DNA of 64,000 nt, from NCBI GenBank assembly GCA_947591605.1, contig CANQDF010000007.1, forward strand, positions 1 to 64,000. Reading direction: 5' to 3'. Below are positions 11,295-45,136 of this stretch, piece by piece (the stretch's first letter is position 1; every line of letters begins with the position of its first letter). The position numbers and the translations under genes were made by a program. This DNA comes from an uncultured Clostridia bacterium. GTDB lineage: Bacteria; Bacillota; Clostridia; Lachnospirales; CAG-274. A model generated the notes under the pieces. It saw only the letters and a program-made list of their open reading frames with translations, did no database searches and was not told where the DNA came from.

Positions 11295-11323
11295 TTGACT
11301 TGATGCCGTTAATTGTGTATAAT
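11295..11323 (+). promoter_or_regulatory. Strong promoter of the non-coding region
   Basis: TTGACT (11295-11300) and TATAAT (11318-11323) are 17 bases apart, a near-consensus sigma-A promoter. The nearest real gene downstream has its own promoter at 12100-12127, so this one must serve the non-coding stretch between. Confidence 0.75.
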
Positions 11324-11330
11324 GTAATTA

Positions 11331-12062
11331 CAAAAAAGAAATACACATAAGCAATTTTAAACAATGTGTTTCTTTTTAAGAGAAGGTCTTAAATATATAA
11401 TTTATTATGAAGGGAGTGGGTTCCGCCAAGAACTTTAGTTTTTTAGCTTAACGGTACAGGCTTTACATCTTTTTTACAAGTTTTCATTTCATATGTAACC
11501 GATGTGTAGAACAGATTCTTATCTTTCGTAAATTTTATTAATTGGATCGTTAAATTTTTTTTAAAATTTTCATATAGATAAGCTATAAAAGCATAACCGT
11601 AGAGCATTGATACCGTATAAGCACAGGGTAAACCGAAGATTTGGTTTTTAACAGCGAGGTACAGACCGATGAACAGATGAGTTTTTTTACAGAACAAAAT
11701 CCAAACGGGAGGTACGGTCCGATGAAAGTATCAGTTTAGGACTTAGGTCAAGGACAAAATCTTACTTAGTGAGGTAAAAGCCAATGGATGGATCTAATTA
11801 TATCGGCGGTTGGTTATAAGTTATACAGCATTTTAGCCTAACGGTGGTTATACCGTAAAATTTAATTTGATACTTGCTTTTGTATGATGATTGATCGGGT
11901 ACCGATAAAGGACAAAGCTTAACAAATTTATTGTTGGAGGTACGGTCCGATGAACAGTGCAAATATTTAAACCGAAAAAGAAACGGAGATTTAAAAGTGA
12001 ATACAGAAATTGAAGTAATAATGTGACCTGTCATTAAATCGTATGATGAAATGACAGGTCAT
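11331..12062 (+). ncRNA. Candidate large structured non-coding RNA (about 730 nt)
   Basis: This 732-base stretch has a strong promoter, no plausible gene on either strand, and ends in a perfect 10-bp hairpin (GACCTGTCAT/ATGACAGGTC, 12024-12060) before an AT-rich tail. Local hairpins include AAACC/GGTTT (11630-11647), ACGGT/ACCGT (11841-11856), ATCGG/CCGAT (11894-11906) and a 5-prime hairpin at 11331-11375. The motif GGAGGTACGGTCCGATGAA occurs identically at 11708-11726 and 11936-11954, with variants at 11655 and 11769, and GACAAA-CTTA elements recur between them. Size and repeated motifs recall ornate large RNAs such as ROOL, GOLLD or OLE, but I cannot match it to a known family by eye. Confidence 0.55.
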
Positions 12063-12074
12063 TAATTTTGTCAA
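12024..12074 (+). terminator. Closing hairpin of the non-coding RNA
   Basis: GACCTGTCAT and ATGACAGGTC form a perfect 10-bp stem around a 17-base loop, followed by ATTAATTTTGTC. The T-tract is interrupted, so termination may be partial. Confidence 0.6.
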
Positions 12075-12099: not shown

Positions 12100-12127
12100 T
12101 TGACAGTACCTCAATTTAAGGTATAAT
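12100..12127 (+). promoter_or_regulatory. Promoter of the cysE operon
   Basis: TTGACA (12100-12105) and TATAAT (12122-12127) with a 16-base spacer lead directly into the T-box leader. Confidence 0.75.
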
Positions 12128-44530: not shown

Positions 44531-44806
44531 GTCCTGTGCTAGCCGGGGATGTAGTGGCTCCTTGTATCTGTAAATCCGCTCTAACAGAGGTGATGTCTTT
44601 TCTGAGGCAGGGTCGTGTCGGGTCTGCCCCGGGTAGGTGGCGTTGACGGTGGAGTCTTGCGCAATGAAAGCTTGTGAACCGTGTCAGGTCCGGAAGGAAG
44701 CAGCACTAAGCAATACCTTTTGTGTGCCGCAAGGTAGCTTGACCTGAGTTAACCGCCCGGGTAACGTCGGTATTATCGTGTCGAGGTAAAGATGCACAGG
44801 ATTTTT
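44531..44806 (+). ncRNA. ffs: Signal recognition particle RNA, large Alu-containing type
   Basis: The conserved SRP hairpin is present: GAACCGTGTCAGGTCCGGAA (about 44677-44696), then GGAAGCAGCACTAAG. The 5-prime GTCCTGTGC (44531-44539) pairs with GCACAGGAT (44794-44802), which closes the molecule and, with the following TTTTTGTTTTTTG, acts as terminator. The 5-prime part (CCGGGGATGTAGTGGCTCC) matches the Alu domain of the Bacillus-type RNA of about 270 bases. It guides FFH-bound ribosomes to the membrane. Confidence 0.95.
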
Positions 44807-44816
44807 GTTTTTTGTA

Positions 44817-44845
44817 TTGACATAGTAATTTTTGTATGTTAATAT
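44817..44845 (+). promoter_or_regulatory. Promoter of leuA
   Basis: TTGACA (44817-44822) and TAATAT (44840-44845) are 17 bases apart, just ahead of the T-box. Confidence 0.7.
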
Positions 44846-44851
44846 ATATGT

Positions 44852-45136
44852 AATTCGATATTAGGTAACACTGTGATGAGGAATAGTAGGTTATACGTTA
44901 GCTTGCAGAGAGCTGCCGCTTGGTGAAAGGCAGCAGTAACAAGTAACTGAACTCGCCTTGGAGTGGTCGGCTGAACTTTACCGCAGGTAAAACAGTAGGC
45001 TTGAACGGATGCCCACCGTTACAGGGGCAGAATATCAGCTTAGGCTCGTATTCGGTTGAGTGTATTCCTTTGGGATAAATTAGAGTGGTACCACGGATCT
45101 TACCTTTCGTCTCTTGTGTGACGAAAGGTTTTTTTA
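44852..45136 (+). promoter_or_regulatory. T-box riboswitch, leucine specificity
   Basis: The T-box motif AGAGTGGTACCACGG lies at 45082-45096. Stem I carries GAACTCGCC, with CTC (44952-44954) as likely Leu specifier. The terminator ACCTTTCGTC/GACGAAAGGT (45102-45111 and 45120-45129) is followed by a T-run to 45135. Uncharged tRNA-Leu should allow read-through into leuA. Confidence 0.92.

Follow-up and report, generated by a model that had tools for sequence, protein, structure and literature searches.

A near-consensus promoter, followed by some 730 bases without a plausible gene, lies just ahead of a T-box leader in the genome of an uncultured Clostridia bacterium. What does this stretch encode? 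A preliminary description of the 64,000-nt segment that contains it (here, the window, to which unprefixed coordinates refer) had read it as a large structured RNA of the OLE, ROOL, or GOLLD kind or of a new class. We find a stand-alone RNA gene whose repeated parts are better read as very short translation units, and we consider below what such an array may be for.

A stand-alone RNA unit ahead of a T-box leader

The unit occupies positions 11295 to 12066 of the forward strand and consists of a promoter, a module region, and a terminator-like hairpin, giving an RNA of ~735 nt. The component features reported in the preliminary description were largely borne out. The promoter, TTGACT-17-TATAAT (11295 to 11323), agrees with the consensus at 11 of 12 bases; the ORF listing holds no ORF of more than 84 codons inside the RNA region on either strand; and the unit closes with a near-perfect hairpin (12024 to 12061) within a terminator-like element (12024 to 12070), with a weak U tract in the window (AUUAAUUUUG), against a strong one (CUUUUUUU) in the homologue described below. 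The T-box (RF00230; 12139 to 12355; 106 bits in an Rfam search) is indeed separate from the unit and has a promoter of its own with 12 of 12 consensus bases (12100 to 12127). The −10 and start region of the RNA promoter is common to strong pilin-gene promoters of the same bacterial family, suggesting that the promoter type of the window RNA is among the strongest in the family; the RNA is probably strongly transcribed. Matches recovered by BLAST in the family at query bases 12 to 51 were set aside, as they are not homologues but the promoters of tandem pilin genes. Such pilin-like genes are present as tandem, near-identical copies in L135, L122, L138 (G034:C32:30175-33619), L123, and L125, and their promoter and 5′ leader (TATGTATAATGTAATTACAACAAAAC) closely resemble the promoter of the window RNA. 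Elsewhere in the window, positions 44534 to 45117 hold a large bacterial SRP RNA with a second T-box leader close behind.

The search for homologues in related genomes that had been proposed for this locus recovered one within the genus, where two species besides that of the window (G001 and G002) were sampled. G002 carries an RNA of ~984 nt with 72% identity over 475 nt starting at the promoter; G001 yielded no match. The G002 homologue keeps the 5′ hairpin, the core, the modules, the last ORF, and the terminator, with the pairing of the latter retained despite base changes (GACCTGTCATT to GACCTGCTGTT). It lies at another locus, flanked by a Fur-family-like gene on one side and a xylulokinase-like gene on the other (both identified by eye from their translations); the T-box cysE locus of G002 matches the window only from 12091 onward, i.e., past the RNA, and is preceded by a gatB-like gene. 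The gene thus stands at different places in two congeners and has moved. In G002, the start of the contig next to the homologue (L003, positions 1 to 800; G002:C30) contains many short inverted repeats close to the Fur-family-like gene. An own promoter and a terminator hairpin are present in the homologues, and, going by homology, the window RNA is a real stand-alone gene.

The 5′ part of the RNA begins with an A-U hairpin (AAAAAGAAATACA / TGTGTTTCTTTTT; 11333 to 11377), which is retained in G002 with one G-U to A-U change. It is followed by a first module-like element without an AUG (AAGGGAGTGGGTTCCGCCAAGAAC; 11410 to 11440), for which by-eye comparison identified counterparts in G002 (AAAGGAGTGAGTCCGCCAAAC) and G330 (AAAGGAGTGAGACCACCGAAAAC), and by a conserved core (TTCATTTCAT..GTAAC.GATGTGTAGAACAGATTCTTATCTTTCGT .. 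TTTTCATATAGATAAG; 11480 to 11622), in which GATGTGTAGAACAGATTCTTATCTTTCGT is identical in G002. This core is genus specific: a 23-mer core pattern matches only G000 and G002, and covariance-model searches of genomes of the family, order, and class did not find it outside these two. Weak matches of the R1 model in G012, G021, and G449 lie inside or antisense to coding genes and were rejected. Searched as DNA, the window RNA had no match in phage and plasmid records.

A large folded RNA like ROOL, GOLLD, or OLE would account for the strong promoter, the length (~735 nt, and 984 nt in G002), the conserved 5′ core, and the few retained stems, but several observations render it very improbable. The window RNA matched no Rfam family (ROOL, GOLLD, OLE, and raiA included) at the gathering score or even at an E value of 10, so that the proposed kinship finds no support, and the relatives that were checked likewise gave no Rfam match. 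Its folding energy does not stand out (z = −1.73 with the terminator; approximately −0.8 to −0.9 once the terminator is left off; −2.65 for the G002 RNA without its terminator), although this score has little power here, given that the SRP RNA of the window reaches only −0.07. Changes on both sides of a pair were seen in 2 of 57 predicted pairs in the two-sequence alignment of the window and G002 RNAs. Ten genomes from a distantly related genus, in which the RNA follows a glyA-like gene (the glyA-linked genus), gave one such pair among 20, which does not exceed the yield of shuffles; the sequences are few and related, making this a weak test of secondary structure. Most linkers between modules fold weakly, and the modules themselves read as translation starts. 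ROOL, GOLLD, OLE, and raiA/ModT are large or abundant RNAs of Clostridia and phages with their own promoters (PMC12286853, PMC11706538), whereas the window-type RNA has no model match or comparable covariation and its repeats are apparent translation-initiation modules. The designation as a large structured RNA is therefore unsupported. What stands of the preliminary description is an independent, conserved RNA gene of ~700 nt that belongs to no Rfam family and hence is probably a new class; its repeated modules prove to be, on the evidence that follows, start-stop sites.

Repeated modules and their reading frames

The motif GAGGTACRGNCCGATGAA occurs three times, at 11656, 11709, and 11937, with one variant at 11771. 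The repetition itself had been recorded earlier, but its character as a Shine-Dalgarno sequence (SD) followed by an AUG and a short ORF had been overlooked. Module 1 (11656 to 11680) comprises the SD GAGG, the spacer UACAGACCG, and the frame ATG AAC AGA TGA (MNR*; ORF, 11669 to 11680). Module 2 (11709 to 11739) has the SD GAGG, the spacer UACGGUCCG, and a frame from ATG to TAG (MKVSV*; 11722 to 11739), and the same SD and spacer recur in module 4 (11937 to 11970), with a frame from ATG to TAA (MNSANI*; 11950 to 11970). Between these two, module 3 (11771 to 11819) has the variant spacer UAAAAGCCA and a frame from ATG to TAA (MDGSNYIGGWL*; 11784 to 11819). The series ends with a last ORF preceded by an SD-like GGAG (11984 to 12026 in all), which starts with GTG at 11997 and encodes VNTEIEVIM* (11997 to 12026). 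Modules 1 to 4 have 2, 4, 10, and 5 codons after the ATG, respectively, more than in most relatives; hence, the window alone is no proof of a start-stop reading, and it is the relatives that supply it.

Aligned on their core, the modules give a consensus of an A-rich segment and GAGGUAYRSWCCR, followed by AUG, AAG, or ACC. In the AUG modules, the SD core ends 9 nt ahead of the start codon, and these 9 nt form the conserved spacer UAYRSWCCR. An in-frame stop lies within five sense codons in all 67 distinct AUG modules, which come from ten lineage groups, and within two sense codons in 49 of them; stops within two sense codons are found in 21 and 1 cases in the two other frames. At other SD-AUG sites of the same loci, used as a control, a stop occurs within two codons in 10% and within five in 16%, so that the combination of SD, start, and early in-frame stop that marks a minigene is present beyond chance (67/67 versus 16%). 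The stop was absent from all search patterns, and the statistic is therefore not circular. Phage modules, which are mutually related, make up 34 of the 67, and the effect is seen in each of the ten groups. Five loci (L281, L294, L295, L297, and L299) were left out of these statistics and rejected, as they look like ordinary gene starts matching the motif.

The stops themselves (52 TAA, 8 TGA, and 7 TAG) are interchangeable between orthologous modules: TAA is exchanged with TGA, and TAG with TAA, between L042 and L067; TGA is exchanged with TAG between L024 and L048; and TAA is exchanged with TGA between the phage loci L290 and L291. The peptides of the short modules are mostly not conserved (MK, MA, MY, MKT, MEV, MNR, and MFR). 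Early stops, stop exchanges, and variable peptides together indicate that selection acts on starting and stopping and not on the product, and we regard the reading of the modules as minimal start-stop ORFs as well supported by these comparisons. Conserved protein reading frames in relatives had been named beforehand as grounds for abandoning a noncoding RNA at this locus; such frames were found, in the unexpected form of frames 1 to ~23 codons long. Module starts are mostly 46 to 70 nt apart, leaving room for one ribosome per module.

In the bacterial set, 34 of 73 distinct modules have AAG or ACC in place of AUG, with SD and spacer kept. These modules are conserved across the ten aligned genomes of the glyA-linked genus, and a stop follows in the same phase in 16 of 20 AAG and 11 of 14 ACC modules, the phase being held less strictly by AAG modules outside that genus. 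The AAG/ACC modules could be SD-only ribosome sites. Elements of the STAB-SD type, in which an SD binds ribosomes without a start codon, are comparable in this respect but occur as a single element in the 5′ part of an mRNA and form no array. By prediction, the SDs of the modules have below-average accessibility and are partly paired locally, and such pairing could gate initiation.

The spacer is the main feature without an explanation: all 49 modules from outside the glyA-linked genus have GGUA and CC (which is partly built into the search pattern), and this near-invariance exceeds the needs of ribosome binding. It would be expected of a sponge, with a protein or small RNA recognizing single-stranded GAGGUAYRSWCCR, as would the conservation of non-AUG modules over ten species. 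The sponge RNAs CsrB and RsmZ are, like the window-type RNA, stand-alone and carry many copies of a short motif overlapping an SD-like sequence. The window-type motif, however, mostly does without their GGA-loop signature (many modules have AGAGAGGU, AAAGGCGGU, or AAAGGCAGGU, with no GGA to be repeated in hairpin loops) and carries in-frame start-stop ORFs. A sponge predicts neither in-frame stops after AUG nor stop-for-stop exchange, and the further genomic copies of GAGGTAYRSWCC that were inspected look like chance matches and not gene starts, leaving no regulon apparent; we consider this explanation unlikely. Two further readings of the motif were tried and dropped. As a three-base-pair hairpin, GGU-NNNN-RCC, it would mostly place U against U in the third pair, and this is no longer the main explanation. 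As a continuous coding frame, AGG-TAY-RSN-CCN (Arg-Tyr-x-Pro), considered for its wobble-like pattern, it has no consistent upstream start, and several genomes interrupt it in their last module (GGAGGACGGTCC).

Distribution in Clostridia and viruses

Module arrays were recovered from some ten lineages of Clostridia and roughly 25 viral contigs. A scan for single copies of the motif in one genome per species returned mostly chance matches but also ten loci with clusters, in which the copies are spaced by ~50 to 70 nt, all in Clostridia and several from animal or termite guts. Among 383 genomes of the order, a two-module pattern matched 16 and its reversed control 3. A single genus in a different family, the glyA-linked genus, accounts for 13 of these 16, and there the RNA stands behind the glyA-like gene in the loci that were read. 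Further arrays are present in G330 and G373 and, from a class-wide search, in G558 of another family. Patterns for a single strict module recovered the viral contigs, several of which are 130 to 144 kb long. Most of the 74 viral matches of an earlier search were GC-rich chance matches, and only L206 and L215 were kept. The viral version is compact, with two modules between promoter and terminator, and in five checked contigs a PHP-domain gene lies downstream. Promoter, modules, and terminator are common to the bacterial and phage versions, and the neighboring genes vary by lineage (the T-box cysE region, a convergent xylulokinase-like gene, or the phage PHP-domain gene). One viral contig (L293; IMGVR_UViG_3300028048_000121) has two separate two-module RNAs ~1.4 kb apart, and in another (L298, near 10889; IMGVR_UViG_3300032038_000154) a lone module, GAAAGGAGGTATGGTCCAATGGTTTAA, encoding MV*, sits between two apparent tRNA genes, outside any array.

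The last module, whose ORF is often longer than those before it, opens with ATG, GTG, or TTG and varies in length, with 23 codons as the maximum. Its stop reaches the terminator stem in many bacterial loci, among them L024, L042, the window, G002, and those of the glyA-linked genus; the stem of the window opens with the TGA (12024 to 12026). Leader-peptide attenuators similarly have a short ORF that ends at a terminator hairpin, and a ribosome on the last ORF might block the hairpin and let transcription reach the next gene. This is quite improbable, as the window-type RNA has no constant downstream gene and many upstream start-stop modules, its neighbors differ by lineage, and the cysE T-box has a full promoter of its own.

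The counterpart of the window's last peptide in G002 is VSTDIEISFQ*, while between lineages the last peptides differ widely. Within the glyA-linked genus, the differences among ten genomes are whole codons and synonymous and stop-for-stop changes, and the phage last ORFs repeat M-D-x-V/I-x. The last ORF of g16 (e.g., L251, 7928 to 7970) encodes short acidic peptides like LDEIFSLEDEYSV*, shows coding-type variation, and ends at the terminator stem; judged by this pattern, its product is possibly a real micropeptide. Such coding-type conservation would suit protection in cis, with ribosomes on strong SDs shielding the RNA from nucleases and the 5′ domain or the last micropeptide as the actual product. 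Mini-ORFs and SD-bound ribosomes have been reported to protect mRNAs (PMC8708949), and an SD without AUG would suffice for this, consistent with the AAG/ACC modules. Even so, the phage RNA has hardly anything besides two modules and a terminator, the last peptides diverge across lineages, and the largest arrays, with seven or more modules, seem to exceed what protection requires, all of which makes protection in cis somewhat unlikely.

A putative ribosome decoy

While the module reading is well supported, the purpose of the array (ribosome decoy, self-protection, sponge, or attenuator) is something that we infer. The RNA appears to be a row of ribosome landing pads, and its most likely role, to which we give slightly less than an even chance, is that of a decoy acting in trans on ribosomes or initiation. 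Ribosomes would load on the modules, form a few peptide bonds at most, and terminate, the useful product being ribosome engagement rather than protein. The decoy would thereby tie up initiating ribosomes and recycling factors, with phages carrying a two-module copy, and a ribosome on the last ORF would touch the terminator, the stem of which often adjoins the stop. That phages keep little beyond promoter, modules, and terminator favors the trans decoy. Against it stand the roughly half of the bacterial modules without AUG, the lower predicted accessibility of the SDs, the near-invariant spacer, and the longer than typical ORFs of the window. The promoter, modules, in-frame stops, terminator, and recurrence in many lineages can be read directly in the sequence; transcription, ribosome binding, action in trans, and a physiological role are what we infer from it.

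Bacterial minigenes, of which lambda bar RNA is an example, are the closest parallel: they likewise have a strong SD, an AUG, one to a few codons, and a stop, and translating them matters more than the peptide. They differ in being single elements, mostly within or ahead of other genes, whereas the window-type modules stand in tandem, with seven or more in the largest arrays; they have an RNA to themselves and a conserved spacer between SD and AUG, and they recur in many Clostridia and in phages. Mini-ORFs described so far include the two-codon mg2 of axe-txe and those of ler and esp, and peptidyl-tRNA release, ribosome reinitiation, and RNA shielding have been reported for a strong SD with a very short ORF (PMC8708949). 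A literature search for the motif string and for tandem mini-ORF RNAs, with subscription papers mostly outside its reach, returned nothing relevant beyond single minigenes; as far as the literature searched and Rfam show, a dedicated start-stop array appears to be undescribed. The frames are too short for gene finders and the fold too plain for covariance models, and both would miss such genes.

We tentatively propose, with somewhat more doubt than for the decoy role itself, an undescribed RNA class common to Clostridia and phages in which a start-stop array would capture initiating ribosomes and tune translation; the copy in phages would mimic or compete with the host RNA. If this is true, translation itself, and not its product, would be used as a signal or trap, which would be a new mode. 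Minigene biology (peptidyl-tRNA release, reinitiation, and SD-only binding) would then be testable in natural RNAs. The retention of the array across many Clostridia, and of two modules in phages, would point to a new phage-host interface in gut and rumen bacteria.
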